Shown here piece by piece: positions 8,579 through 39,566 of a stretch of 64,000 nt of DNA. Each line of letters opens with the position of its first letter. Position 1 is the stretch's first letter. The notes under the pieces are model-generated. The model was not told the DNA's origin. It made no database searches and worked only from the letters and a program-made list of their open reading frames with translations. Made by a program: the position numbers and the translations under genes. Origin of the DNA: Pararhodobacter aggregans (GTDB lineage Bacteria > Pseudomonadota > Alphaproteobacteria > Rhodobacterales > Rhodobacteraceae); the NCBI RefSeq assembly GCF_003075525.1, contig NZ_QDDR01000012.1, forward strand, positions 62,001-126,000. The letters are read 5' to 3'.

Positions 8579-11010
8579 TCGGCGGCCTCCAGCGACAGGT
8601 CGGCAAGGGGCCGGAACCGCCGCGCCGCATCGGGCCTGGCGTGTTCGGCCCAGGGGTCCTTCTGATAGATGGACTGGCTCAGATCAAAACGCGCGATCAA
8701 GGCGGCGCGGATCTCGGCATCCAGCACCTGCGACCTGATCCAGTCGAGCCCGACCTTCCTGATCCATTTGTAGGGCCGGTCCAGGTATCTGGCATGTTCG
8801 CGGTAAAGCTGAACGAAGGCCACCGTGACATCCATTGCCTCGGCCTCGGTCTCGACCGCGACGAGGCGCTGGGTTTCCTGCAGGTCCATCCCCGCGGCTC
8901 CGCCGACGCCGACCTGGTATCCCGACTCGACGCAGACGATGCCGACATCCTTGCAGGTCGCCTCGGCGCAGTTGCGCGGACAGCCCGACACGGCCAGCTT
9001 GACCTTGTGCGGCGTCCACGATCCCCAGAGCCTTTGTTCCAGCCTGACGCCCAGGCCGGTCGAATCCTGGGTGCCGAACCGGCAGAACTCGGTCCCCACA
9101 CAGGTTTTCACCGTGCGCAGGCCCTTGGAATAGGCATGGCCCGAAACCAGACCGGCAGCGTTCAGATCGGCCCACATCGCCGGCAGGTCATCCTTGCGGA
9201 CTCCCAGCAGATCGATGCGCTGTCCGCCGGTAACCTTGACCATCGGCACGTTGTACTTGTCGGCGGCATCGGCGATGGCGCGGAGTTCGCGGGCGTTGGT
9301 CACACCCCCCCACATCCGGGGCACCACGCTGAACGTCCCGTCCTTCTGGATATTGGCGTGCAGGCGTTCATTGACGAACCGGCTTTGCGCATCGTCGCGA
9401 TAGTCCAGCGGCCAGTCGGCCAGCAGATAGAAGTTCAGCGCCGGACGGCAGGAAGGGCAGCCGCAGGACGTGCGCCAGCCCAGTTCCTGCAAGACGGCGG
9501 GCATCGATTTCAGCTCTTGCGCCTTGATAAGGCGCCGGACGTCCTCATGGGTCAGATCCGTGCAAGCGCACATCGGCTGGGCCGTGGGCATCTGGAAGGC
9601 CTCGCCAAGGCTGAGCGCCAGCACCTGCTCGACCAAGCCGGTGCAGGTGCCGCAGGAGGCCGAGGCCTTGGTCCTGGCCCGCACCAGTTGCAATGTGGTG
9701 GCGCCCCCGTCGATGGCGGCGGCGATCTGGCCCTTGCATACGCCGTTGCATCCGCAGATCTCTGCCTCAGGCGGCAAGGCTGCAACGGCTGCAAGAGGGT
9801 CCGCGGCGACACCTCCGGCAAAGGCGGGGCCGAAGATCAGCGTCTCGCGCTCGCCCGAGATGTCGGCGCCGTCCTTGATCTTCTGGAAGAACCAGTTGCC
9901 ATCGGCGGTATCGCCATACATGACCGCGCCGATCAGCCGGTCGCCTTCGAGGACGAGCCGCTTGTAGATGCCGCGTCCGGGATCGCGGAACACGATTTCC
10001 TCCCGGCCGGGCTTGTCGGCGAAATCGCCGGCGCTGAACAGGTCCACGCCCGTGACCTTGAGCTTGGTCGCGGTCTGCACCGGACGAAAGGCGGCATCGC
10101 CACCATTCAGGACCGAGGCCAGCACCTTTGCCTGATCGTAGAGGGGCGCCACAAGGCCGAACAACTGGCCGTCGAACTCGACGCATTCCCCGAGGGCGAA
10201 GACATCCGGGTCGGCCGTGCGCATCTGCGGATCGACGACGACACCCCGGTTCACTTCCAGATGGGCATCGGTGGCGAGTCGGGTCTCGGGGCGGATGCCC
10301 ACGGCCATGCAGACCAGATCGGCGCCATAGACGGTGCCATCCTCCAGCAGCACGGCCTCGACCTTGTCCTCGCCGAGGATCGCCTTGGTGGCGCCCTTGC
10401 AATGCACGCGGATGCCGCGCCGTTCCAGATCCTTCTGCAACAGGTAGCCCGCCGCCGGATCCAGCTGGCGTTCCATCAGATGGCTCATCAGGTGGATGAC
10501 GGTCACATCCGCGCCGCGCGCGGCCATCCCCGCCGCGGCTTCCAGCCCCAGAAGCCCGCCGCCGATGACGACGGCTTTCGCGCCGGGGCGGCTGGCCGCG
10601 ATCATCGCATTGGTGTCCTCCAGATCGCGATAGGTGACCACGCCCGGCAGCGCCTTGCCCGCCACCGGGATGATGAAGGGCGCCGACCCCGTGCCGATCA
10701 CCAGCCGGTCATAGGGCGTGTCACCCTGCGCCGTGACCACGACCTTCGCCGCACGGTCGATGCGGACCACCGGCTCGCCGAAGCGGCAGGTGATGCCCCG
10801 GTCTGCATAGAAGGCATCGTCATGGGTGATGATGTCCTCGTAGGCCTTTTCGCCCGACAGGACCGGCGACAACATGAGCCGGTTGTAGTTGCCGCGCGGC
10901 TCGGCGTTGAACAGGGTCACATCCCATCGGTCCGGGGCGGCGTCCAGCAGGTGTTCGATCAACCGGCCCGAGGCCATGCCGGCGCCGACGATGACGAGTC
11001 GTTTCTTCAT
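8575..11010 (-). CDS. nirB: NADH-dependent nitrite reductase large subunit (siroheme)
   Basis: An 811-residue enzyme that reduces nitrite to ammonium with NADH. Domains in order are an FAD/NAD pyridine-nucleotide oxidoreductase (starting KKRLVIVGAGMASGRLIEHL, with GGGLLGLEAAAGMAARG near 150), two BFD-like [2Fe-2S] domains (CGCNGVCKGQ...SCGTC and CACTDLT...SCGCPSC), and the siroheme/[4Fe-4S] module (CVGTEFCRFGTQDS; SGCPRNCAEATCKDVG). The ATG at 11010 follows GAGGACAGTGCC. An open frame continues upstream antiparallel to the transporter end but lacks protein-like sequence. It starts 20 bases after the transporter gene. Confidence 0.96.
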   Translation of the reverse strand: MKKRLVIVGAGMASGRLIEHLLDAAPDRWDVTLFNAEPRGNYNRLMLSPVLSGEKAYEDIITHDDAFYADRGITCRFGEPVVRIDRAAKVVVTAQGDTPYDRLVIGTGSAPFIIPVAGKALPGVVTYRDLEDTNAMIAASRPGAKAVVIGGGLLGLEAAAGMAARGADVTVIHLMSHLMERQLDPAAGYLLQKDLERRGIRVHCKGATKAILGEDKVEAVLLEDGTVYGADLVCMAVGIRPETRLATDAHLEVNRGVVVDPQMRTADPDVFALGECVEFDGQLFGLVAPLYDQAKVLASVLNGGDAAFRPVQTATKLKVTGVDLFSAGDFADKPGREEIVFRDPGRGIYKRLVLEGDRLIGAVMYGDTADGNWFFQKIKDGADISGERETLIFGPAFAGGVAADPLAAVAALPPEAEICGCNGVCKGQIAAAIDGGATTLQLVRARTKASASCGTCTGLVEQVLALSLGEAFQMPTAQPMCACTDLTHEDVRRLIKAQELKSMPAVLQELGWRTSCGCPSCRPALNFYLLADWPLDYRDDAQSRFVNERLHANIQKDGTFSVVPRMWGGVTNARELRAIADAADKYNVPMVKVTGGQRIDLLGVRKDDLPAMWADLNAAGLVSGHAYSKGLRTVKTCVGTEFCRFGTQDSTGLGVRLEQRLWGSWTPHKVKLAVSGCPRNCAEATCKDVGIVCVESGYQVGVGGAAGMDLQETQRLVAVETEAEAMDVTVAFVQLYREHARYLDRPYKWIRKVGLDWIRSQVLDAEIRAALIARFDLSQSIYQKDPWAEHARPDAARRFRPLADLSLEAAE

Positions 11011-27407: not shown

Positions 27408-28484
27408 TCACTCCTTCCGCAGGGCTCTCACCAGGCCGAAATGCAGGTCCGTGACCGACAGGCCAAGCGCCCCGGCGAGGTCCTGCAGCGTGATCTCCCT
27501 CCCGCCGTCCTGACCGACGAGCGTCACGGGATCACCGTCGCCGGCATCCGCAATGTCACTGAGATCGACCATCGATGCCAAGAGCGTTCGCGCGACAACC
27601 GGCGCCGCTTGCCCCCGGATCAGCACCTGTCCGAACGGCGGTCGAGCCGGGAGCCCGTCGAAATGGCCGATGGGAATGGTCCCGACCCGCGATGGCGCGC
27701 GCCCCGCCACGGCGCCGTAGCCGAGCGCGCCCGCCCGCCGAACAGCGCGGCTGTCGAGCAGCACGGACCGGATCGCGCGGACCACGGGCCTGAAAGCGGC
27801 GCTGCCCGGCGGCTGCATCATGCCATAAAGCGCCCGGCCGGGATCGACCTGTTCATGGCGCAAATCGGGCCGTGCCAGCAGCAGGGGGCTGGCCGCAAGC
27901 ATGCCTGGTATCGCCCGCCTGCAGGCCGCGCGGATCGAGGTCAGTTGCCGGTCAAAGGCGGCCAGCGCGGCCTCGGTCGAACCGCGCGCCGAGGATTGAC
28001 TGAAATGGGTATAGACCCCGGCGATGCCCTGCAGGTGCCCCTTGTCGAGCGCCGACAGGACCGGCGCCAGTTCAGGCTCGGCAAAGCCGTAGCGATGCAG
28101 GCCGCAATCGAGCTTCAGCCAGAAACCCGCCTCAGGGGCGGCCATCAGGATCGCCTCCAGACTGGCCCGATTGTGCACGGAAACCAGGATCCCTGCCGCG
28201 GCCAGCGCTGGCAGATCGGCCGGCAACGCCGAGGGGAACATCAGGATCCGGGCGTCAGGCAAGGCGGCGCGCAGCTCCAGCGCCTCGTCTGGCGTACCGA
28301 CGCAAAACCGGCCGAGCCCGCAGGCCGCCCCCATCCGCGCCGCACGGACCGTGCCCAGCCCGTAGCCGTCGCCCTTGCAGACCTGCCAGATCACCGGATC
28401 GCCGGGCAGCATCCCGCGCAGCAGCGCGAGGTTGTGGCGCAGCGCGTCCGGGTCGAGCTCGACATGATTGGGGCGCGAGATCAT
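27408..28484 (-). CDS. alr: Alanine racemase family protein
   Basis: A 358-residue fold-type III PLP enzyme. The Schiff-base Lys37 lies in VCKGDGYGLG (canonical VKANAYGHG), with LKLDCGLHRYGF, GVYTHFSQS and the PGRALYGMMQ motif further on. A C-terminal beta domain holds GALGYGAVAG. It overlaps hyuB by four bases and is the last gene of the LacI-controlled hydantoinase operon, so it is unlikely to be the housekeeping cell-wall racemase. More likely it racemises an amino acid released by the HyuAB step, which is inference. Several core motifs deviate (CKGDGYG), fitting a specialised member. Confidence 0.82.
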   Translation of the reverse strand: MISRPNHVELDPDALRHNLALLRGMLPGDPVIWQVCKGDGYGLGTVRAARMGAACGLGRFCVGTPDEALELRAALPDARILMFPSALPADLPALAAAGILVSVHNRASLEAILMAAPEAGFWLKLDCGLHRYGFAEPELAPVLSALDKGHLQGIAGVYTHFSQSSARGSTEAALAAFDRQLTSIRAACRRAIPGMLAASPLLLARPDLRHEQVDPGRALYGMMQPPGSAAFRPVVRAIRSVLLDSRAVRRAGALGYGAVAGRAPSRVGTIPIGHFDGLPARPPFGQVLIRGQAAPVVARTLLASMVDLSDIADAGDGDPVTLVGQDGGREITLQDLAGALGLSVTDLHFGLVRALRKE

Positions 28485-30325
28485 GGGCGGTCGCCGATCC
28501 CCGGACCGGCGCCGATCGTCTCCAGGAAATGGGCCTGCTGCCTCATCGCGAGTTCTCCCGGTTCCAGCCGCGACAGGTCCCGGCGCAGCGCGTCGGTCGC
28601 GAGCGGATCCGGCGCCCCATCGGCCGCCAGCACCACGCCATAGACCGTGCGGGCGTGCCCGGCGTCCAGAAGGCCATCGCGGCAATCCTCGGCCACCGCC
28701 TCGGGTGGACGGGTCAGCGGGTCGCCATAACCGGCGCCGCCCGCGGCGATATGCATCACGCGGTCGCCGCGTTGCAGCGGGCGCGGTCCCATGTTCATGG
28801 TCGGCAGCAGGCTGCAACGGCCATCGGCATGCTGCAGCGTCGTCACCGAGGGCGAACCCGGCAATCCGCCGTCCATCGCCAGCGGCAGATTGCGCCGCCG
28901 ATCCGAACGCAGGGTCATGGAGGCAGTCTCGGCCTCGATCACATAGGTGCGCTGCATCGCCAGCCCGCCGCGCCGGCGCCCGGCCCCACCGGAATTCGGC
29001 GCGAAGCCATAGCTTTCCACGCGCAGCGGCAGACGGGCCTCCATCAACTCGATCGGTTGGTTCGAGAGGTTGGCGCCGGGGCTGGAGATGCCCTCGACCC
29101 CGTCATGGTCGCGCCGCCCGCCCCAACTGCCGAGGATGCCGTCCGTGACCAGCCATTGCACCTGACGCGGGCCCTGCCGCCCCGAGAAGGTGATCGCCGT
29201 CGGCCCGCCCTCGCCGCCGGCGGGCACCAGCCCCGGCATCAGCGGGCCGAAGGCGGCGAAACAGGTGTCGAGCATCCGATAGGCGATCACGCCGCGCGCC
29301 GCGCAGGCCGCGCCGTCGCGCGGGTTGACGATCGATCCCTCGGGGGCACGCAGATGGATCGGCCGCATGTAGCCCTCGCAATTCGGGATCCCCGGACCCA
29401 GGGCATTGCGCAAGGCGGCATAGGCGAGCGACCAGGTGGTCGTGATCGGACAGTTGATCGCACCGGCAACCTGATCCGAGGTCCCCTCCCAGTCGAAGGT
29501 GATCTCGCTGCCCTTGACTGTGATCGCGACATGAAAGTCGATCCGCGCGCCGGATTCGCCGAGCCCGTCGATGTAGTCGACCGCGCGCATCACCCCGTCC
29601 GGGATCTCGGCGATGCGCTGGCGCACCAGCCGCTCGGCGTAATCGTGCAACTCGTCGATCAGCGCCGGAAAGGCCGCGCCGTGCTTGGCCACCAGCGCCG
29701 CGAAGGACCGCGCGACGGTATCGCAGGCCGAGATCTGCGCGCGCAGATCGCCCATCACCTCGCCCGGCATCCGGGAATTGGCGCGCAGCATGTCGAATAC
29801 CGCGGCGTTGGGCCGCCCGGCCTCGAACAGCCGCACCAGCGGGATGCGCAAACCCTCCTGATGGATCTCCTCGGCATTCAGCGCCATCGAACCGGGGGCG
29901 AGGCCGCCGATATCGGTGTGATGCACCAGCGAGGCGGTGAAACCCACGCGCTGCCCGGCCTGAAACACCGGGCGGATGAAGAAGATGTCCGGCAGATGCA
30001 TGCCCCCTGCGGCATAGGGATCGTTGACGAGGAAGCCATCGCCCTCGGCAATCGTCGCGCCGAAGGTTTCCAGCAGCCGCGTCATCACGCGCGGGAAGGA
30101 CCCCAGGTGAATCGGGTTCGTCAGACCCTGCGCCACCAGCCGCCCCTCGGCATCGAAGATCGCGGTCGAGTAATCCATCGAGTCGCGCACGATCGGGCTG
30201 TAGGCCGAACGCAGGATGATCAGCGCCATCTCGTCGGCCAGTGATTCCAGCGCGTTCTTCAGGATTTCCAGTGTCACGGGGTCCGAGCGCGTGGCGGTGA
30301 TCTCGGGTCGGGGGGCGAGCGGCAT
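28481..30325 (-). CDS. hyuB: Hydantoinase B / oxoprolinase family protein
   Basis: A 614-residue HyuB-type subunit: opening DPVTLEILKNALESLADEMALIILRSAYSPIVRDSMDYSTAIFDAEGRLVAQGLTNPIHLGSFP, then NDPYAAGGMHLPDIFFIRPVF and HHTDIGGLAPGSMA, all hallmark segments. With HyuA it hydrolyses cyclic amide rings (5-oxoproline, N-methylhydantoin and similar) using ATP. AGGAGGCCTGAG precedes the start at 30325, only one base after the hyuA stop. Length is typical for separate-subunit forms. The exact ring substrate is not readable; a carboxylase role (acetone or acetophenone carboxylase relatives) is less likely because no third subunit is present. Confidence 0.92.
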   Translation of the reverse strand: MPLAPRPEITATRSDPVTLEILKNALESLADEMALIILRSAYSPIVRDSMDYSTAIFDAEGRLVAQGLTNPIHLGSFPRVMTRLLETFGATIAEGDGFLVNDPYAAGGMHLPDIFFIRPVFQAGQRVGFTASLVHHTDIGGLAPGSMALNAEEIHQEGLRIPLVRLFEAGRPNAAVFDMLRANSRMPGEVMGDLRAQISACDTVARSFAALVAKHGAAFPALIDELHDYAERLVRQRIAEIPDGVMRAVDYIDGLGESGARIDFHVAITVKGSEITFDWEGTSDQVAGAINCPITTTWSLAYAALRNALGPGIPNCEGYMRPIHLRAPEGSIVNPRDGAACAARGVIAYRMLDTCFAAFGPLMPGLVPAGGEGGPTAITFSGRQGPRQVQWLVTDGILGSWGGRRDHDGVEGISSPGANLSNQPIELMEARLPLRVESYGFAPNSGGAGRRRGGLAMQRTYVIEAETASMTLRSDRRRNLPLAMDGGLPGSPSVTTLQHADGRCSLLPTMNMGPRPLQRGDRVMHIAAGGAGYGDPLTRPPEAVAEDCRDGLLDAGHARTVYGVVLAADGAPDPLATDALRRDLSRLEPGELAMRQQAHFLETIGAGPGIGDRP

Positions 30326-30326
30326 C

Positions 30327-32417
30327 TCAGGCCTCCTTGGTGATGACGATGTTGGTAAAGGCGTCGAGTTCGGCGCCCCAGCCGGGCGGCACGACGGTGG
30401 TGCTGTCGTATTCCTCGACGATGAGCGGCCCGGCACGGCGGCCTCCGGCCAGATCGGCGCGGGTCAGGACCGGTGTGGCGACGCGGGCACCGAGCGCCGC
30501 GAAATGGACCTTGCGATGATGCGTGCCGCGCGCGGGCGTGCCCAGCGGCGGGGCGCGGAAGGTCCGGTCGCCGCTGTCGGCGCGCAGGCCGATCAGCCGC
30601 AGGTTCACCAGTTCGACCGCGTCCTCGTCCGAGGCATGGCCGTAGGTGCGGGCGTGTTCGCCATGGAAAGCCGCGCCGAGGGCGTCCAGAATCCCCTCCG
30701 GCAGCTCGGCGGCGACGGGAACCGTCAGCTCATAGGCCTGACCGACGTAGCGCAGGTCGGCCTCGATCTGGAACCGCATGGCGTCGGGTGCGCAGCCCTC
30801 GTCGGCCAGCGCCCGCGCGACACCCTCGCGCAGGGCGTCGAGGCCGTGCTGAAGCGCCTCGGGCGTCAGCGCGGCCAAGGGCCGATAGACAGTGCGCGTC
30901 AGTTCGCGCCTGGTCTGCGAATGCAGCAGGCCCAGGGCCGAAAAGACGCCCGGGCTGGGGGGCACCACCACGCGGCCCATGTCCAGCAGTTCCGCCACCT
31001 GGACCGCGACCAGCGGACCGTTGCCGCCGAAGGCAAAGAGCGCAAAGTCGCGCGGGTCGCGGCCGCGATAGGTCGAGACCGCCTTGACCGCCCGCATCAT
31101 CGTCGCCGCGGCAATGGCATAGACGCCGCTCGCAGCCTGATCGAGCGTCAGCCCGGCCGGACCTGCCACGCGCGCCTGCAAGGCGTCGCGCGCCTTCGCG
31201 GCATTCAGCGCCACGGCGCCGCCTGCCAGATGCTCGGGGTTCAGATACCCCAGCACCACCGCTGCGTCGGTGAAGGTCGGATCCTCGCCGCCGAGGTCAT
31301 AGCAGGCGGGCCCCGGCGAGGATCCGGCACTGTCCGGGCCCACCCGCAGCGCCCCGCCCGCGTCGAGCCGCACGATCGAGCCGCCGCCCGCGCCGATTTC
31401 GGAGACGTCGATGAAAGGCATCTTGACCGAATGCCCGCCACCCTTGACCAGCTTGGAGCTGAGGTTGATCCCCGCCCCCACCTCGTATTCTGTGGTGCGC
31501 GTTGGCTCGCCGCCTTCGATCATCGCGGCCTTCGCCGTGGTCCCGCCCATGTCAAAGGTGATGATCTCGCCATAGCCCGCGGCGCGCCCGAGATTCGCCG
31601 CCGCGATCACCCCGGCCGCCGGACCGCTTTCGATGATCGCCGCCGGGATCTCGGCCGCAGCGCGCGCGCTCATCGCCCCGCCCGAGGATTGGACGATGGA
31701 CAGGGGCGCCGCCAGCCCCGCGCTGGCCAGACGGCGTTCCAGCGACAGCAGGTAGCGCTTCACCACCGGCCCCAGATAGGCGTTCACCACGACAGTGCTG
31801 GTGCGTTCGTATTCGCGGATCTCGGGCAGGACTTCGGTCGAGCGGGTGAGGTAGATGTCCGGCCCCAGCGCCTCGGCCAGCAGGGCGAAGGCGCGGGCTT
31901 CGTGATCGGGGTTGGCGTAGGAATGCAGGAAGCTGATCGCCACCGCCTCGATCCCGGCGGCGCGGATCTCGGCCGCGATTGTCGTCAGCTCCGCCTCGGC
32001 CAGCGGCACCAGGACCGAGCCGTCGGCCAGCATGCGCTCGCTGACCTCATAGCGGTGACGTCGAAGGGCCAGCGGCACCGGCTTGACGTAGTTCAGGTCA
32101 TAAAGCTGCGGCACGCGCAGCCGCCCGATCTCGACCACGTCGCGAAAGCCGCGCGTCGTTACCAGCGCCGTTTTCGCGCCTTTGCCTTCCAGCACGGTGT
32201 TGGTGGCGACGGTCGTGGCATGGATGATCTCGGACACCTGCGCCGGATCGGCACCCACGCGGCTCAGCAATTCCTGCGCGCCATTCAGGATGCCCAGCGA
32301 ATAATCCGCCGGCGTGGACGAGACCTTGCACTGATGAATCGTTTCATCGTTACCGCGCAGAACAACATCGGTGAAGGTGCCGCCGATGTCGGCACCCAGT
32401 CGGTAGGTAATGGTCAC
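30327..32417 (-). CDS. hyuA: Hydantoinase A / oxoprolinase family protein
   Basis: A 696-residue HyuA-type ATP-binding subunit. It starts MTITYRLGADIGGTFTDVVL, the phosphate-binding loop of the ASKHA fold, followed by HATTVATNTVLEGKGAKTALVTTRGFRDVVEIGR and, further on, DMGGTTAKAAMIEGG and GAGGGSIVRLD. It activates a cyclic amide with ATP for ring opening together with HyuB. Residues 24-28 (DETIH) are encoded by an exact copy of the upstream LacI operator, and the codons there are unusually AT-ending for this genome. It follows the ATPase gene by 16 bases. Confidence 0.93.
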   Translation of the reverse strand: MTITYRLGADIGGTFTDVVLRGNDETIHQCKVSSTPADYSLGILNGAQELLSRVGADPAQVSEIIHATTVATNTVLEGKGAKTALVTTRGFRDVVEIGRLRVPQLYDLNYVKPVPLALRRHRYEVSERMLADGSVLVPLAEAELTTIAAEIRAAGIEAVAISFLHSYANPDHEARAFALLAEALGPDIYLTRSTEVLPEIREYERTSTVVVNAYLGPVVKRYLLSLERRLASAGLAAPLSIVQSSGGAMSARAAAEIPAAIIESGPAAGVIAAANLGRAAGYGEIITFDMGGTTAKAAMIEGGEPTRTTEYEVGAGINLSSKLVKGGGHSVKMPFIDVSEIGAGGGSIVRLDAGGALRVGPDSAGSSPGPACYDLGGEDPTFTDAAVVLGYLNPEHLAGGAVALNAAKARDALQARVAGPAGLTLDQAASGVYAIAAATMMRAVKAVSTYRGRDPRDFALFAFGGNGPLVAVQVAELLDMGRVVVPPSPGVFSALGLLHSQTRRELTRTVYRPLAALTPEALQHGLDALREGVARALADEGCAPDAMRFQIEADLRYVGQAYELTVPVAAELPEGILDALGAAFHGEHARTYGHASDEDAVELVNLRLIGLRADSGDRTFRAPPLGTPARGTHHRKVHFAALGARVATPVLTRADLAGGRRAGPLIVEEYDSTTVVPPGWGAELDAFTNIVITKEA
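32333..32348. promoter_or_regulatory. Intragenic LacI-type operator inside hyuA
   Basis: GATGAATCGTTTCATC is identical to the site at 38142-38157 upstream of the operon and sits 70-85 bases into hyuA. It covers codons 24-28; four of those five codons end in A or T (GAT GAA ACG ATT CAT), in a genome where GC-ending codons dominate. Function as a bound operator is inference. Confidence 0.6.
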
Positions 32418-32433
32418 GGGTCTCTCCTGTGGA

Positions 32434-34044
32434 TCAGGCGGGGCTTGCGAAACGGGCGCGGCCGGCCAGCCCCTTGGGCAGCGAAGCCAGCAGCGCGCGG
32501 GTGTAATCGGTGGCGGGATGGGTCAGGACCTGCCGCGCCTCGCCGGTCTCGACGATGGCGCCCGCGCGCATCACGAGGACCCGGTCGCAGATCGTGCCGA
32601 TCAGCCCGAGGTCGTGGCTGATGACGATCAGCGTCATGCCGAGATCGCGCTGCAGCGCTTGCAGAAGCTCGATGATCTCTTTCTGCACCGAAACGTCCAG
32701 CGCGGAGGTGGGCTCGTCGGCGATCAGGATGTCGGGGCTGGTCGCCAGCGCCCGGGCGATGCCGACGCGCTGACGCTGGCCGCCCGACAATTGGTGCGGA
32801 TAGCGATCCAGCAGCGCGGGATCGAGGCGTACAAGCTCCATCAGCGCCCCGGGGCTGCGCCGCTCGGCGCGGGGCAATGCCTGCATCGCCTCGGACAGGG
32901 CCCGCCGGATGGTCTTGCGCGGGTTGAGCGAGGCCTGACTGCCCTGAAACACCAGCTGGATCCGGCGCGACAGCGCGCGGCGCCCGGCCCGGTCGCGGGG
33001 CTTCAGCGGAGCGCCTTGCAACAGCACGGTGCCGCTGGTTGGCAGGTCGAGCCCGATCAGCAGCCGCGCCAGCGTCGACTTGCCCGAGCCGCTCTCGCCG
33101 ACGATGCCCAGCACCTGCCCGGCATGGACCTGCAGGTCCGAGGGACGAAGCGCCTGCACCTGCCGCCGGTCCCAGAGCCTTGCCACGGCCGAGCGCGCGC
33201 GCGGATAGGCGCGGCTGACCGCGCGGGTCTCAAGCACCACGGGCGTGTCGGGTATCCGGCCCTCGCCCGGCAGGCCGATCCGGGGGATCGCCGCCAAGAG
33301 CTTCCGCGTATACTCGGCCCGCGGCGCCCCCATGACCTGCGCCGCCTCGCCCATCTCGACAATCCGGCCCTCGTGCATCACCGCGATGCGGTCGGCGAAT
33401 TCCCCGACCAGATCAAGGTTGTGCGAGATGAACAGCAGCCCGATGCCGCGCGCCCGGCACAGATCGACCAGCAACCGCGTGATCTGCTCCTGCACGGTCA
33501 CATCCAGCGCCGTGGTCGGCTCGTCCGCGATAAGCAAGGCGGGATCGCAGGCGATCGCCAGCGCGATCATCACCCGCTGCCGCATCCCCCCGGACAGTTC
33601 ATGCGGATAGAGGGTGAGGCAACGCTCGGCCTCGCGGATGCCGACCTGGGCCAGCAGATCGATGGCCCGACCGCGCCGCGCCGCGCCGGACAGGTCGGTA
33701 TGCGCGGCCAGCACATCGCCGATCTGCCGCCCGACCGGAAACACCGGGTTGAGCGAGGTCATCGGATCCTGGAAAACCATCGCCACCCGCCGCCCGCGCA
33801 TCTGTCGCAGCGCCGAGGCGGACAGCGACAGCACGTCCTCGCCCTGCAGCAGGATCCGCCCCGCAGTCCGCGCCGCGCCGTCCAGCAACCGCATCACCGA
33901 CAGGGCGGTCACGCTCTTGCCCGAGCCGCTTTCGCCGATGATCGCCAGCTTCTCGCCGCGCGCCAGATGCAGCGAGACGCCGCGCACCGCGTGAAAGGTG
34001 CCAAAGCGGACATCCAGATCCTCGATCTGCAACAGCGCATCCAT
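32434..34044 (-). CDS. Dipeptide-type ABC transporter ATPase, fused double NBD (DppD-DppF/GsiA-like)
   Basis: A 536-residue protein containing two complete ATPase domains. NBD1 (about 5-255): Walker [11 protein letters not shown]-loop [12 protein letters not shown], signature LSGGMRQR, Walker [16 protein letters not shown]2 (about 285-530): [56 protein letters not shown]. Each NBD ends in an oligopeptide-family C-terminal segment. It energises the DppBC-like permeases encoded just upstream. The start at 34044 shares one base with the preceding stop; the longer open frame upstream is a shadow. Confidence 0.95.
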
Positions 34045-34922
34045 CAGGCGGTTTCCTTCGGCAGGCGGGTGCGGCGGCGCGGGTCGAACAGGTCGCGCAG
34101 GCCGTCGCCCAAGAGGTTGAAGCCGATCACGGACAGGAAAATCGCCAGACCCGGGAACAGCGACAGCCAGTATTCGCCGCTGAACACCGTCTGCTTGCTG
34201 TCCGCCAGCATCGAGCCCCAGCTGGGCATCGGTGGTTGCACACCGAGGCCGACGAAGGACAGCGAGGCTTCGATGATGATGCCGATGCCCACCAGCACGC
34301 TGGCCTGCACCAGAAGCGGCGACAGGATGTTGGGCAGCACGTCGCCGAACAGGATCGCCGCGCTGCCGGTACCCGGCAGGCGGCGGGCATCGACATATTC
34401 CTGCTTCAGCTCGGCCAGTGCCAGGCCATAGGTGATGCGCGCGATGCCGGGGAAGAACAGGACGCCCACCAGCAGCACCAGTTTTGCCTCGTTCGACAGG
34501 CTCACCGGGCCGATCTGCGTGGCGCCGGTGCCGACGATGCCGACCACGGCGATGGCCCAGATCAGCACCGGGATCGCGGCGAAGATATCGACAAGACGCA
34601 TGGCCAGCTCCTCGAACAGGCTGCCGGCGGCTTCGGCGGCGGCTAGGCCCAGCGAAACGCCCAGCACCATGCCGATCACCACGATCCCCAGGCCGATCGC
34701 CAGGGACGAGCGCGCGCCCCAGAATGTGCGCGCCAGCACGTCGCGCCCCAGCGCATCGGTGCCGAACCAATGCTCGGCCGAGGGCGGCAGATAGGTGTCG
34801 AGGATGCTGGTCGCGGTCGGCGAGGGCAGCGGCAGTACCGGAGCCAGCAGCGCGATCAGCCCCATGGCCAGGACCAGCGCCAGGCCCAGAAGGGCGACAG
34901 GAGAGCGGGAGAGCGCGGACAT
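34044..34922 (-). CDS. Dipeptide-type ABC transporter permease (DppC-like)
   Basis: A 292-residue permease with about six membrane helices. It has the DppC-typical N-terminal segment and periplasmic loop (YLPPSAEHWFGTDALGRDVLARTFWGARSSLAIGLGIVVIGMVLG) and a C-terminal SFVGLGVQPPMPSWGSMLADS. The motif FGTDALGRD is diagnostic of the DppC/OppC group. GAGGAGGGATC precedes the ATG. It lies ten bases after the partner permease and touches the ATPase gene. Confidence 0.95.
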   Translation of the reverse strand: MSALSRSPVALLGLALVLAMGLIALLAPVLPLPSPTATSILDTYLPPSAEHWFGTDALGRDVLARTFWGARSSLAIGLGIVVIGMVLGVSLGLAAAEAAGSLFEELAMRLVDIFAAIPVLIWAIAVVGIVGTGATQIGPVSLSNEAKLVLLVGVLFFPGIARITYGLALAELKQEYVDARRLPGTGSAAILFGDVLPNILSPLLVQASVLVGIGIIIEASLSFVGLGVQPPMPSWGSMLADSKQTVFSGEYWLSLFPGLAIFLSVIGFNLLGDGLRDLFDPRRRTRLPKETA

Positions 34923-34931
34923 GATCCCTCC

Positions 34932-35864
34932 TCAGGTCGCGAGGCGCGGGTTCAGCGCGCGCTGGATCAGATCGGCAGCGGTCGAGGCCAGCACGAACAC
35001 GAGGGTAATCAGCAGCACGATGGCCTGGATCATCGGGTAATCGCGCTGGAAGATCGCGGTCAGCAGCGCATTGGCAAGGCCGGGCAGGTTGAACACCATT
35101 TCGACAATGACGGCCCAGCCGAACATGTAGCCATAGGACATGGCCGCCATCGAGACGAAGGGCGGCAGGGCGTTGCGCAGCGTATAGACATAGCGGGTGC
35201 GCGCCGGCAGTCCCAGCGCCACGCCGGTACGGGTGTAATCCTGCCCCAGCACGTCAATCAGGCTGGCGCGCATCAGCCGGGACATGGCGCCGATGTAATA
35301 GATCGCAATCGCCAGCGCCGGCAGCAGGAGCGAGGACAGATGCGGCCAGACCCCGCGCGCCCAGGGGATCACGCCCACCGGTGGCAGCCAGCCCAGTTGC
35401 ACACCCACCAGCCGCATCAACAGGAGGCCCAGCCAGAACCCCGGCACCGACAGCGCCGCCATGGCGAGGATGCGCACGGCATGATCGGGCCAGCGGTTCT
35501 CGCCATAGGCCGAGGCCGATCCCAGCGCGACCGACCCCACCACCGCCAGCACGAAGGCCAGCGTCACCAGTTCCAGCGTCAGCGGCAGCGTCTCGGCCAG
35601 CCGCTGGTTCACCGATTGGCCGGTGACATAGGAGCGGGCGAAGCCCTCGGCCGGCAGCGCGCGCAGCCATGCCAGGTATTGCACGGCGATGGGCCGGTCC
35701 AGGCCGTGCTCGGCCTCGAAGGCGGCGAGGCTCTCGGCGGGCGCGTCGGCGCCCAGCACCAGCCGCGCGGGCGAAACGCCGCCCAGCCGGGTCAGCGCGA
35801 AGATCATCGCGCTGACCACGAAGAGCACCATCAGGGCGCTGGCGAGGCGGGTCAGAACCGGCAT
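34932..35864 (-). CDS. Dipeptide-type ABC transporter permease (DppB-like)
   Basis: A 310-residue permease of the DppB/OppB group: N-terminal TM1 (LASALMVLFVVSAMIFALTRLGG), the periplasmic ERG-like loop (EHGLDRPIAVQYLAWLRALPAEGFARSYVTGQSVNQRLAETLPLTLEL) and the C-terminal core (SLIDVLGQDYTRTGVALGLPARTRYVYTLRNALPPFVSM; EMVFNLPGLANALLTAIFQRDYPMIQ). Normal length. It starts one base after the binding-protein stop. Confidence 0.95.
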   Translation of the reverse strand: MPVLTRLASALMVLFVVSAMIFALTRLGGVSPARLVLGADAPAESLAAFEAEHGLDRPIAVQYLAWLRALPAEGFARSYVTGQSVNQRLAETLPLTLELVTLAFVLAVVGSVALGSASAYGENRWPDHAVRILAMAALSVPGFWLGLLLMRLVGVQLGWLPPVGVIPWARGVWPHLSSLLLPALAIAIYYIGAMSRLMRASLIDVLGQDYTRTGVALGLPARTRYVYTLRNALPPFVSMAAMSYGYMFGWAVIVEMVFNLPGLANALLTAIFQRDYPMIQAIVLLITLVFVLASTAADLIQRALNPRLAT

Positions 35865-35865
35865 C

Positions 35866-37410
35866 TCAGGCCGCGAGCTTCACGTCGCGAAGCCGCAGGG
35901 TGATGCCGGTGTTCACCGGCATCTCGGTCACGTCGGCGCCCCAGAGATTGAAGGCCTTGGGCGTACCGATGAAGGCCGCCGGGGCCTCGTCGGCAAGGAT
36001 TGCCTGTGCGCGGGCCAGGATCGGCGCAAGATCCTCGTCGCGGGCCGCGAAACTCTCTTCGATGGCCGCGGTCAGCGCCTCCGAGCTGAAACCGGTGCCG
36101 ACATTGAGCGACTGGCCCGGCATGAACAGGGCGTTCATGATGAAGGTCGGATCGGTCGTCCCCACCACGGCCCAGAGCACCGACTGGTGGTTGCCGCCGA
36201 AGATGTCGCCGAACATCTGCCCTGTCTCCAGCGGCTTCAGTGTGACGGTGATCCCCACCTCGGCCAGGGCCGCCTGGATATAGAGCGCGGTGTCGCGCAC
36301 ATCGAGCAGGTAGGCGTCGGTCGGATAGGTCAGTTCGAAGGCGGCGTTCCCGGCATGGGCGCTGTCGGCGAGCGCGGCACGGGCCGCCTCCAGATCCATC
36401 GACAGCCGGGCATCGGCCTCGGCGGAATGCAGCGCCGAGGCCGTCGGCACAAGGACCGAGGTCTCCTCGAGCAATCCGCCATAGATCCGCTCGGCAATCG
36501 CGGCGCGGTCAAAGGCGCGGGCCACGGCGATGCGGAAGTTCCGGTCGTCGAACGGGGCTTTGGCGCAGTTGTGCATGAGCATCATCGCCGCCCCGAGCGC
36601 CGGCTTCGACGCCCCCGAAAAGCCGCCGCCCTCGGCCGTCAGGCGCAGGAAATCGCGCGCCGCAGGGCCGCCGACCACATCTGCCGTGCCGCTCATCAGC
36701 GCGGCGAGACGGGCGTTCGCCTCGCCCGCGATCTCGAAGCGGACGACATCCCAATCGGGCGCCTCACCCCAGTAATCGGGATTGCGCAGCAGTTCGACAT
36801 AGGCGCCGGTCTGTGCCTCGGAGAAGATCGCAGGCCCGGTGCCCAGACCCGCGGGGGCGCTCTGGAACGCGTCCGCCGCCGCCTCGCGCGAGCCCTGGGG
36901 GAAGATGCCCATGTATTTGGTCATCGACGAAAGAAGCGGGCGGTAGGGCCGCGAGAGGTGGAAGCGGACCTCGTAATCGGACAGGACCTCGACGCGCTCG
37001 ATCGCCGTCCAGTAGGACCGGCGCAGGGCCTCGTTGGCCGGATCGAGCATGTAATCATAGGAGTATTTCACATCCGCCGCGGTGAAGGGCGCGCCGTTGT
37101 GGAACCGCACCCCCTCTCGCAGACGGAAGGTATAGGTCAGTCGATCCTCGGAGATCTCGGGCAGGTCGACGGCCAGCTGGGGCACCAGATTGCCGTCCAC
37201 ATCCACCTCCAGCAGGTTCTGGTAGATCAGCTGGCTGACCGCCATCGCGTCATGGTTGCTCTGGTTCAGCGGATCCAGTGTCGAGGGGTTCGACGGGATC
37301 GTCGCCACCAGAACCTTGCGCCCCTGCGCATCGACGCGGGTGGCGAAGCCCCCGGCGAGGCTGGCGGTCAGGCTGGCGGCTGTAGCGAGGAAATGTCGGC
37401 GGGACAGCAT
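35866..37410 (-). CDS. Peptide/nickel-type ABC transporter substrate-binding protein (SBP family 5)
   Basis: A 514-residue extracytoplasmic solute receptor of the DppA/OppA family. The N-terminus is a twin-arginine signal (MLSRRHFLATAASLTASLAGG). The mature part shows GRKVLVATIPSNPSTLDPLNQSNHDAM and YTFRLREGVRFHNGAPFTAADVKYSYD, diagnostic of the family. The start at 37410 was chosen because it yields the Tat signal; upstream codons are not protein-like. With the two permeases and fused ATPase it forms a complete importer whose ligand, from operon context, may be a cyclic amide or amino-acid derivative. Confidence 0.94.
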   Translation of the reverse strand: MLSRRHFLATAASLTASLAGGFATRVDAQGRKVLVATIPSNPSTLDPLNQSNHDAMAVSQLIYQNLLEVDVDGNLVPQLAVDLPEISEDRLTYTFRLREGVRFHNGAPFTAADVKYSYDYMLDPANEALRRSYWTAIERVEVLSDYEVRFHLSRPYRPLLSSMTKYMGIFPQGSREAAADAFQSAPAGLGTGPAIFSEAQTGAYVELLRNPDYWGEAPDWDVVRFEIAGEANARLAALMSGTADVVGGPAARDFLRLTAEGGGFSGASKPALGAAMMLMHNCAKAPFDDRNFRIAVARAFDRAAIAERIYGGLLEETSVLVPTASALHSAEADARLSMDLEAARAALADSAHAGNAAFELTYPTDAYLLDVRDTALYIQAALAEVGITVTLKPLETGQMFGDIFGGNHQSVLWAVVGTTDPTFIMNALFMPGQSLNVGTGFSSEALTAAIEESFAARDEDLAPILARAQAILADEAPAAFIGTPKAFNLWGADVTEMPVNTGITLRLRDVKLAA

Positions 37411-37435
37411 GGCAGTTTCCTTTCGGACGAAGGGG

Positions 37436-37993
37436 TCAGAGCTGGGCAAGCAGTGCGTCGGTGGTGGTGACCTCGGCCCGCGTGGCAAAAGGCACGCGCA
37501 GCAGGGCTTCCTGCGCCGCGGCGTCCGGCTCGAAACAGCCGTCGGCGATCAGCAGGATCCGGTAGTCGAGGTCGCTGGCCTCGGCCAGGGTCGAGAACAC
37601 TACCCCCGAGGTGGTGATCCCGGCCATCATCAGCGTGTCGATGCCCCGCGCCCGGAGCGAGAGGTCAAGATCGGTGCCCTTGAAGGCGCTGACGCGATGG
37701 GCGGTGATCTCGGTATCGCCGCTCCCCCGGAGGGCATCGGGGATCGCGTCGTTGGTGAACAGACCGAAACTGCGGATCATCTGGCCGTTCTGGTTGTTCG
37801 CGCTGATCTCGCGGTAATCGGGGCTGAAACCGATCCGCACCAGATAGACCGGCACCCCGGCCCCTCGCGCAGCCCCGGCAAGCCGGGCCATGCGCTGGAC
37901 ATAGGCGTCGATACCCGCCTCGGCAAAGAGGGCGAGGATGTCGGTCTGGTAATGCAGCAGGACAAGCGCGCTGCGGCGGGGGTCGATCGGCAT
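37436..37993 (-). CDS. Isochorismatase-fold hydrolase-like protein lacking the catalytic cysteine
   Basis: A 185-residue protein of the isochorismatase superfamily (ALVLLHYQTDILALF; HRVSAFKGTDLDLSLRARGIDTLMMAGITTSGVVFSTLAEASDLDYRILLIADGC). The Asp and Lys of the triad are visible, but the position of the nucleophilic Cys in amidase members (VATDVCV) is Val in TTSGVVFST, so it is not an obvious N-carbamoyl amidohydrolase. GAGGAGAGCCCC precedes the ATG at 37993. In frame upstream, an ATG at 38128 would add a Tat-like leader (TRRAMIAGALSLGFIHSLPQSARS) without a ribosome site. It is the first gene of the hydantoinase operon, directly after the double LacI operator. Confidence 0.8.
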   Translation of the reverse strand: MPIDPRRSALVLLHYQTDILALFAEAGIDAYVQRMARLAGAARGAGVPVYLVRIGFSPDYREISANNQNGQMIRSFGLFTNDAIPDALRGSGDTEITAHRVSAFKGTDLDLSLRARGIDTLMMAGITTSGVVFSTLAEASDLDYRILLIADGCFEPDAAAQEALLRVPFATRAEVTTTDALLAQL

Positions 37994-38141
37994 GGGGCTC
38001 TCCTCGATGGGCTGACTGCGCGCGCTTTGGGGAAGGCTGTGAATGAAACCCAGCGACAAGGCGCCGGCGATCATCGCACGCCGTGTCGGCCCTGTCCCCT
38101 CGCCCCTCCTGTCGCCCGCGTCTCTCATGTTGGAATCACCC

Positions 38142-38179
38142 GATGAATCGTTTCATCAACTCTAATGAAACGATTCATC
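38142..38179. promoter_or_regulatory. Paired LacI-type operators upstream of the hydantoinase operon
   Basis: Two near-identical sites face each other: GATGAATCGTTTCATC (38142-38157) and the complement of GATGAATCGTTTCATT (38164-38179). Together they make a perfect 15-bp inverted repeat with an 8-base spacer. Each site is itself a near-palindrome with a central CG, the usual LacI/GalR-family form. They lie between the lacI stop (38197) and the first operon gene, and are the obvious targets of the adjacent regulator. Confidence 0.8.
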
Positions 38180-38196
38180 AGCCGTCCAGTGTTTTC

Positions 38197-39183
38197 TTAC
38201 ACGGATTTGCGATCAATGAACCCGGGCGCCAGCGGGAATGCCGGGGCCGGGGCGGAACGGGCTTTGGGATCAAGGCGTTGCAGCAAAAGCTCGGCCGCTT
38301 CGGACGCGACGCGCCGGCTTGGCAGCACCACCGCCGAGACGGCCGGCCGGCAGATGGACAGGAACGGATCGTCCCCGATGGAGATCACCGAAAGATCCCC
38401 CGGGCAGGCGAGTCCGGCTTCCTCCACCGCACCCAGCACCGCGGGAATGTCATGGACATTGGCCACGACCGCATCGACCGGATCCTCGGCCTGTAGCGCG
38501 GCGCGGAAGGTGGCGGGGTCGAAGCGCCCGGTATGCACGACCTCGAGCCTCGCCCCGGAACCAAGGCCGTCGCGCATCCCGGCCACCTGCTCGCGCCCGG
38601 TCCAGGTGTGTTCATGTCCGGCAATCAGCAGCACCCGCTTCCGCCCGCGCCGCCGCAACGCCTCGGCCGCCATCCGCGCGCCGGCGCGATGATCGGTGCG
38701 CACCGAGGGGAAACGCCCGCCGGTGTCGCGCTCCCACAGCACCACGGGAATCCCCATCGCTTCGAGCCGGTCGAGCAGTGCCGCATCCTCGTCCGAGCTG
38801 ATGGTCAGCACGAGGCCGTCCACGCTGCGCTCGGCCATGAAGCTCAGCAGGCGTTCCTCGGCCGCGGCGTCGTTCTGGAAATCCCCGACGATGGGCGCGA
38901 AACCATGGCGGCGGGCGATTTCCGAGGCCTGCGCCACCAGCGTCGCGGCGACCGGCTGCCGCAGGTCGGTGACGATGATGCCGATGGCATGGGTGCGCCG
39001 CGTGCGCATGGTCCGGGCCGAGACATTCGGGCGATAGCCCAGCTCTCGGATCACCGCCTCGACATGGCGGCGCAGCTCTGGCGCGACGGTGGCATTGCTG
39101 TTGACGATGCGCGAGACGGTGCCGAGCGAGACATTGGCGCGCCGCGCAACGTCCTTCATCGTCGGTGTTCGATCAGACCTCAT
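38197..39183 (-). CDS. LacI-family transcriptional regulator
   Basis: A 328-residue LacI/GalR regulator: HTH TMKDVARRANVSLGTVSRIVNSNATVAPELRRHVEAVIRELGYRPN with the hinge NVSARTMRTRRTHAIGIIV, then a periplasmic-binding-protein-like ligand domain (DGLVLTISSDEDAALLDRLEAMGIPVVLWERD; VISIGDDPFLSICRPAVSAV). The ATG at 39183 (MRSDRTPTMKDV) was preferred; starts at 39192 (TTG) and 39159 are possible. It is transcribed in the same direction as the hydantoinase operon, with the paired operators between, and is expected to repress that operon until its ligand is present. Confidence 0.92.
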   Translation of the reverse strand: MRSDRTPTMKDVARRANVSLGTVSRIVNSNATVAPELRRHVEAVIRELGYRPNVSARTMRTRRTHAIGIIVTDLRQPVAATLVAQASEIARRHGFAPIVGDFQNDAAAEERLLSFMAERSVDGLVLTISSDEDAALLDRLEAMGIPVVLWERDTGGRFPSVRTDHRAGARMAAEALRRRGRKRVLLIAGHEHTWTGREQVAGMRDGLGSGARLEVVHTGRFDPATFRAALQAEDPVDAVVANVHDIPAVLGAVEEAGLACPGDLSVISIGDDPFLSICRPAVSAVVLPSRRVASEAAELLLQRLDPKARSAPAPAFPLAPGFIDRKSV

Positions 39184-39566
39184 GGTGAACAAGCTCGCCT
39201 ATGTACCTGCCGGATGATAGCCGCCGACTTGCGACGGATCGAGGGGCCTCGTGCGTCGGCCTGTGACTTAGGGCCCCTAAGTGCTCGGGACTCCGTCGAT
39301 TTCCAGTCTTGTATCGCCCCCGGACGAGAAGCCACCTGCGGCGGGCGTCGTCAAGACGCTGCTCATGTCCGTTTGGCACCGTCGGTCCTTGGCATCGCCA
39401 TAACTCATCTGTGGCCCTGATCCCCGGTCGCGTCGGGGATGCCGCCACAACGAGGCATGGACGATCTGACAGAGCCCCTTCCGACCGGCGCCGGGCGGCG
39501 ACGTCGGGCCGGGTGGTGTGGAACCATACGGAAACGGTCGGGTTCCCTTAGCGGGAGGACTTCCGC
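39184..39566. promoter_or_regulatory. Divergent non-coding region between lacI and fadE, with a 17-base palindrome
   Basis: This 383-base gap carries the promoters of the leftward lacI and the rightward fad operon. The one clear element is the perfect palindrome ACTTAGGGCCCCTAAGT (39266-39282; 8-bp arms around one base), a candidate operator. Small open frames here (for example 39309-39551) lack recognisable protein character. The fadE ribosome site GGGAGGAC ends the region. No RNA gene was recognised. Confidence 0.5.

Follow-up and report, generated by a model that had tools for sequence, protein, structure and literature searches.

A putative third LacI-family operator within the hyuA coding sequence of a Pararhodobacter aggregans operon

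The hyu operon and its predicted operators

The DNA analyzed here, referred to as the window, is a 64-kb stretch of the Pararhodobacter aggregans genome in which the genes from a LacI/PurR-type repressor to an alanine-racemase-family protein all lie on one strand; we infer that they form one transcript. The genes, three predicted operators, and a possible promoter are as follows, from the head of the operon.

38197..39192, minus strand: lacI, LacI/PurR-type repressor of 331 aa (Pfam LacI, 2.9e-17, and Peripla_BP_3)
38159..38188, minus strand: possible weak promoter, TGGACG and TAGAGT around an 18-base spacer holding the O1 core (8/12 consensus matches, relaxed scan)
38164..38179, no strand assigned: predicted upstream operator O1, its centre 22 bases from that of O2, identical in three genomes
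38142..38157, no strand assigned: predicted upstream operator O2, with 13 bases between it and the isochorismatase-family ATG, identical in three genomes
37436..38128, minus strand: isochorismatase-family hydrolase with a Tat-like N-terminus (Pfam PF00857; TRRAMI conserved in the alignment)
35866..37488, minus strand: ABC transporter substrate-binding protein, family 5 (Pfam SBP_bac_5; longest ORF, true start probably inside)
34932..35864, minus strand: ABC permease 1 (Pfam BPD_transp_1)
34044..34922, minus strand: ABC permease 2 (Pfam BPD_transp_1)
32434..34053, minus strand: fused double ABC ATPase, approximate start (two ABC_tran stretches)
30327..32417, minus strand: hyuA, hydantoinase/oxoprolinase A subunit, 696 aa, sixth gene after lacI (Pfam Hydantoinase_A and Hydant_A_N)
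32333..32348, no strand assigned: predicted internal operator O3, GATGAAACGATTCATC on the hyuA strand, hyuA bases 70-85, exact match to O2
28481..30325, minus strand: hyuB, hydantoinase B subunit, approximate start, the ORF being listed from 30436 (Pfam Hydantoinase_B)
27408..28526, minus strand: alanine-racemase-family protein, approximate start (Pfam Ala_racemase_N and _C)

The best-scoring NCBIfam models are caprolactamase CapA for HyuA and CapB for HyuB, both far under their cut-offs (507.9/1000 and 252.3/1000 bits, respectively), and the racemase-family protein scores 152.7 bits with the alr model, under the cut-off of 168. The operon probably breaks down a lactam-like or amide-like compound. 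The ABC ATPases, fused in one ORF here (32434-34053), are two separate genes in the Bosea and Paraburkholderia operons described below. The Tat-like N-terminus of the isochorismatase-family hydrolase (38050-38128), TRRAMI and a hydrophobic stretch, is kept in three Pararhodobacter genomes, and the DNA upstream of the annotated start of the Paraburkholderia isochorismatase contains an in-frame NRRAF; because of these two features, the hydrolase may be exported.

The sequence GATGAATCGTTTCATC occurs exactly at 32333-32348 and 38142-38157, and 38164-38179 has it with one mismatch on the opposite strand. O1 and O2 both lie between lacI and the first operon gene, adjoining the regulator gene, whereas the internal site is inside the sixth gene, downstream in the direction of transcription, where it reads GAT GAA ACG ATT CAT C on the hyuA strand (codons 24 to 29) and encodes DETIH. 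The first-pass annotation had described an exact 16-base copy about 80 bases into hyuA and 5.8 kb from the upstream copy, and both statements hold: the site occupies bases 70-85, its centre is 5809 bases from that of 38142-38157, and these are the two exact places in the window. The hyuA start codon is GTG at 32417 on the minus strand, and the conserved N-terminal stretch DIGGTFTD precedes the site, with the Pfam Hydant_A_N match beginning at HyuA residue 6; no later start codon can therefore place the site outside hyuA. At up to three mismatches, GATGAATCGTTTCATC gives 10 rows in the window, representing six places of which four are listed on both strands, compared with a mean of 0.33 in shuffled sequences, none of 100 shuffles giving at least 10. 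When up to two mismatches are allowed, GATGAAWCGWTTCATC matches the complete assembly of 5,079,942 bases at the three operator places only, and the control, its reversed pattern, gives one match per strand. A chance match as the origin of the internal site was rejected because of this genome-wide uniqueness.

GATGAAWCGWTTCATC is an even palindrome with a central CG and six of seven outer pairs matched. LacI-family operators are described, in the available portion of a large survey, as even palindromes of 16-22 bases with a central CG, and paired sites show spacing peaks at 13, 22, and 32 bp (PMC4052901); the O1-O2 spacing of 22 is one of these. Elsewhere in the operon there are weak matches to the core, with two mismatches; TGATCGGCTTCA in permease 2 is one of them. 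These matches recur in Bosea, look protein-driven, and were set aside. Separately, hyuB contains a perfect 16-base palindrome, ATCTGCGCGCGCAGAT (29733-29748), as part of 53 consecutive bases that the three genomes share without change; Caballeronia nearly retains the palindrome as well, for which reason it is probably protein-driven.

Conservation and codon choice at the internal site

Among 147 genomes searched, the P. aggregans genome included, only two others, CCB-MM2 and the MAG RHODO2, encode both HyuA (93-97% identity) and LacI (83-97% identity); orthologues were not found in 15 other genomes of the same genus, in which the best E values were 9.3e-131 for HyuA and 3.8e-28 for LacI. None of the three predicted operators differs between the three Pararhodobacter genomes, and the flanking bases vary. 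CCB-MM2 is the more distant relative, its hyuA differing from that of the window in 231 of 696 codons (183 synonymous and 48 nonsynonymous changes), and none of the five site codons is changed among the three genomes. Thus the freely varying synonymous positions that the first-pass annotation had named as evidence against its proposal are not seen, in a comparison that has little power. Taken alone, conservation of the internal site is a weak argument, because 214 of 2076 16-base windows of hyuA (10%) are equally unchanged in all three genomes; among A/T-ending hyuA codons with a conserved amino acid, 51 of 94 vary, corresponding to a probability of about 0.04 that four remain unchanged.

Codon usage was counted over seven genes of the window, hyuA included, which have a GC3 of 0.87 over 3034 codons. 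With this usage, a stretch encoding DETIH would have the five site codons with a joint probability of 0.0021. As was noticed at first, four of the five end in A or T; four or more such codons occur in 5 of 3006 five-codon windows, and the sole one within hyuA is the internal site. This codon choice fits selection at the level of the DNA. The case for an operator, as read from the sequence, rests on uniqueness, exact identity, and codon choice.

An alternative is that the inverted repeat acts in the mRNA as a hairpin (GAUGAA-ACGA-UUCAUC) near the hyuA start. The 45-base stretches of the window and CCB-MM2 fold at −8.4 and −15.6 kcal/mol, respectively (values computed without a shuffle control), the former with this stem, but the pairing predicted for CCB-MM2 is a different one, and the loop bases, which a hairpin does not need, match the upstream DNA operators exactly. 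A hairpin is highly improbable as the explanation.

Operators and promoter-like sequences in distant homologous operons

A tblastn search with HyuA against plasmids gave 975 records, the best seven of which were opened. Four of the seven loci have the same operon type together with a LacI gene: those of Paraburkholderia 22B1P, Caballeronia NK8, Bosea F3-2, and Bosea Tri-49. Left out of the operator tally were two plasmid loci with other neighbours and Bosea NBC_00550, which has transporter, hyuA, and hyuB in the same order, with a LysR gene in front and without an annotated LacI. A search of the G1119 family with Bosea HyuA (1 of 258 genomes at E 1e-235) was discarded as giving no new locus, since its coordinates are those of the Tri-49 plasmid match.

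In the two Burkholderiales loci, HyuA is 61-62% and LacI 38-39% identical to the window proteins, it being noted that the Paraburkholderia lacI is cut by the end of the compared stretch and that the genes of Caballeronia NK8, which is unannotated, were located by tblastn, with no isochorismatase match found in its stretch. Each locus has four perfect TGAATCGATTCA palindromes, one of them just before hyuA; its distance to the gene start is 116 bases in Paraburkholderia, where the start is annotated, and about 43 bases in Caballeronia, where the start was assigned in this analysis. Allowing up to two mismatches, the complete plasmids contain GTGAATCGATTCAC four times in one case, all four within the operon, and six times in the other, four of them within it. 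A further operator in these operons precedes a porin gene (L065:8569 and L066:8664), which is annotated in the first locus and inferred by position in the second; the Paraburkholderia operon also includes a chemotaxis receptor gene.

In Bosea F3-2 and Tri-49, lacI is behind the racemase gene, its product being 44% identical to the window LacI in the one measured, and two sites 21 bp apart precede the substrate-binding gene. No clear operator was found at hyuA in these two operons, the equivalent place having 3/12 mismatches to the Pararhodobacter core. An operator in or near hyuA is therefore found in three of three Pararhodobacter, two of two Burkholderiales, and none of two Bosea loci. Bosea HyuA reads ETxH (ETVH) at the equivalent place, so part of the match is protein-driven; a purely protein-driven match was rejected, because Bosea has ETxH without the operator and the site codons are unusual. 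Fewer than three mismatches to the 12-base core were found in none of 75 other distinct HyuA stretches compared, these coming from alignments that began no later than residue 20 and extended at least to residue 32, with identical DNA dropped. Wider HyuA searches at E 1e-170, which found 36 of 385 and 4 of 398 genomes, with the P. aggregans genome in both, were used for this site comparison only.

These comparisons bear on whether the site is inert or titrating, the repressor binding it without effect, or is a chance match arising from a DETIH-coding stretch. The ETVH of Bosea would accord with this, as would the many intragenic PhoB sites that are transcriptionally inert according to the portion of the report available (PMC10294691). 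Opposed to it are genome-wide uniqueness, the low joint codon probability, identity in three species, and a hyuA operator in two loci of another class, and an inert site is accordingly considered rather unlikely. Good support for an operator maintained at the level of the DNA comes from the uniqueness of the site, its identity in three species, its codon choice, and the operators adjoining hyuA in two Burkholderiales operons.

Promoter-like sequences were sought with a stricter tool and with a relaxed scan, the latter run without a shuffle control; both cover one promoter type (sigma-70-like), and missing sigma-70 hexamers say little in alphaproteobacteria. All three operators before Burkholderiales substrate-binding genes follow TTGACN-17-NATCNT by 3 to 16 bases (9/12 matches, relaxed scan), and the Paraburkholderia isochorismatase operator is behind a weaker pair (8/12, relaxed scan), but none of the four porin and hyuA operators has such a pair before it in the relaxed scan. 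The stricter tool gave a pair at two of the three substrate-binding-gene operators, barely above shuffles (2 versus 0.5 and 1 versus 0.3), and nothing promoter-like near either Burkholderiales hyuA. The possible promoter at 38159..38188 in the window is not detected by the stricter scan, and the same place in the two Pararhodobacter relatives fails the relaxed scan.

The internal site might instead be the operator of a promoter inside or just before hyuA that would give a separate, repressed hyuAB transcript. Burkholderiales hyuA and porin genes, each behind its own operator and an intergenic gap, would be in keeping with this, and in CCB-MM2 a single weak pair (8/12, relaxed scan) ends at the internal site. 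However, this pair is not shared by the others: the relaxed scan shows none at the site in the window or in the second relative (L037), and the stricter scan finds none in window 32200-32700 or in CCB-MM2 (L036) 9850-10150. Moreover, only 16 bases separate hyuA from the ATPase gene. The lack of a shared promoter-like pair before the site weakens this explanation, which is judged unlikely.

The repressor and the role of the internal site

The best relatives of the repressor include PurR, a dimer. Aligned to the PurR chain of 340 residues, it ends opposite PurR residue 330; its alignments to the 360-residue LacI stop at LacI residue 307, and the 331-aa protein shows no LacI-like C-terminal extension. 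In LacI, the C-terminal helix is the tetramer helix. These properties bear on a possible role in looping. The site would then be the auxiliary operator of a repression loop of 5.8 kb, in which a repressor bound in hyuA would contact one bound at O1/O2 and raise its local concentration. Identity of the internal site with O2 is as would be expected for a high-affinity partner, and PMC4132739 cites work on looping over long distances by the Lac and lambda repressors. Nevertheless, the repressor has no counterpart of the tetramer helix, and in the Burkholderiales loci the hyuA operator is at other distances from the front operators than in the window. Tetramers formed through some other contact are possible, but given the end of the LacI alignment and the PurR-like C terminus, a loop made by the repressor itself is distinctly unlikely.

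The repressor is probably a pathway-specific regulator. A genome of another genus of the same family (G307) has a LacI 65% identical to it (L064:14226-15149); hyu genes were not found by tblastn in the 18-kb stretch around this gene, nor was a central-CG palindrome with six of seven pairs found near it, which suggests that this homologue has another target.

Three roles had been proposed at the outset for the internal site; looping and an internal promoter are weakened by the absence of a LacI-like extension and of a shared promoter-like pair, respectively, and the remaining one, a roadblock, is favored. We consider it probable, on the sequence comparisons above, that the site is a third operator of the repressor whose gene heads the operon and that it acts by blocking elongation. 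A repressor dimer on O1 and O2 would block initiation, and repressor on the internal site would stop RNA polymerase entering hyuA from leaky initiation or lacI read-through. The transport genes, being upstream of the roadblock, would keep a trickle of expression sufficient for inducer entry, hyuAB and the racemase gene would stay off without inducer, and inducer would release all operators together. The roadblock is in line with the exact match to O2, the uniqueness of the site, its identity in three species and its codons, as well as with the Burkholderiales hyuA operators that have no promoter pair and the PurR-like repressor; the two Bosea operons with a related LacI and no clear hyuA operator count against it, and binding to a single site may be weaker than to the tandem pair. 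Roadblocking is reported for LacI, PurR, GalR, and CcpA (PMC4132739, PMC3463425). As far as the accessible text goes, a LacI roadblock can lower downstream transcription by >80%, the stalled polymerase is removed mainly by Mfd, and readthrough increases with polymerase flux (PMC4132739), properties that fit a site that would silence leakage yet yield on induction. Two points from the same text count against a roadblock here: RNA polymerase can get past LacI with the aid of a ribosome trailing it, and the roadblock spacings measured there were 30 to 102 bp, not kilobases (PMC4132739).

Intragenic operators are rare but have precedents. In E. coli, lac O2 is within the first gene of its operon, a few hundred bases away, with a loop partner at about 400 bp and a tetrameric, looping LacI. 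It resembles the internal site in being an auxiliary operator copy within a structural gene but differs in that the Pararhodobacter repressor has no LacI-like extension. The PurR operator of E. coli purB, reportedly described by He and Zalkin in 1992 as a roadblock, is similar in having a LacI-family regulator and a site inside coding sequence, and in the elongation block that is proposed here; the Pararhodobacter site differs in being in a sixth gene, 5.8 kb from the front operators, with the regulator gene adjoining the operon. In the available portion of the large survey, coding regions hold <1% of LacI-family sites, with lacZ and purB named (PMC4052901). The first-pass annotation had regarded an operator this deep in a catabolic operon as undescribed for the family. 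That is too broad as worded, since the accessible part of one report places a Bacillus subtilis CcpA (LacI-family) site at +2404, within iolB, which is second in the iol operon (PMC3463425). Like the present site, this cre lies beyond the first gene of a catabolic operon and is accompanied by a site near the promoter, but CcpA is a global regulator, the distance is 2.4 kb rather than 5.8 kb, and the two iol sites differ in sequence, whereas O2 and the internal site are the same (PMC3463425). The distance of 5.8 kb, the position in the sixth gene, and the neighbouring regulator are new, and the features peculiar to this case are its depth, the identical copies, and that regulator. In open-licence PubMed Central, neither a LacI-type operator in hyu or Rhodobacter settings nor a description of an internal hyuA operator or the same arrangement was found.

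A broader and more tentative extension of the roadblock reading, less likely to be right than wrong, is that operon-internal roadblocks of one dedicated repressor could serve as a gene-by-gene dimmer, with transport leaking and the enzymes held tight, and that this is kept in two bacterial classes, the hyuA operator being intergenic in Burkholderiales and inside hyuA in Pararhodobacter, where the gap is 16 bases. As a unique and conserved case, the internal site would allow a test of whether the tuning of individual operon genes by repressor roadblocks is routine, and it also lets one ask whether coding sequences bend to hold operators.
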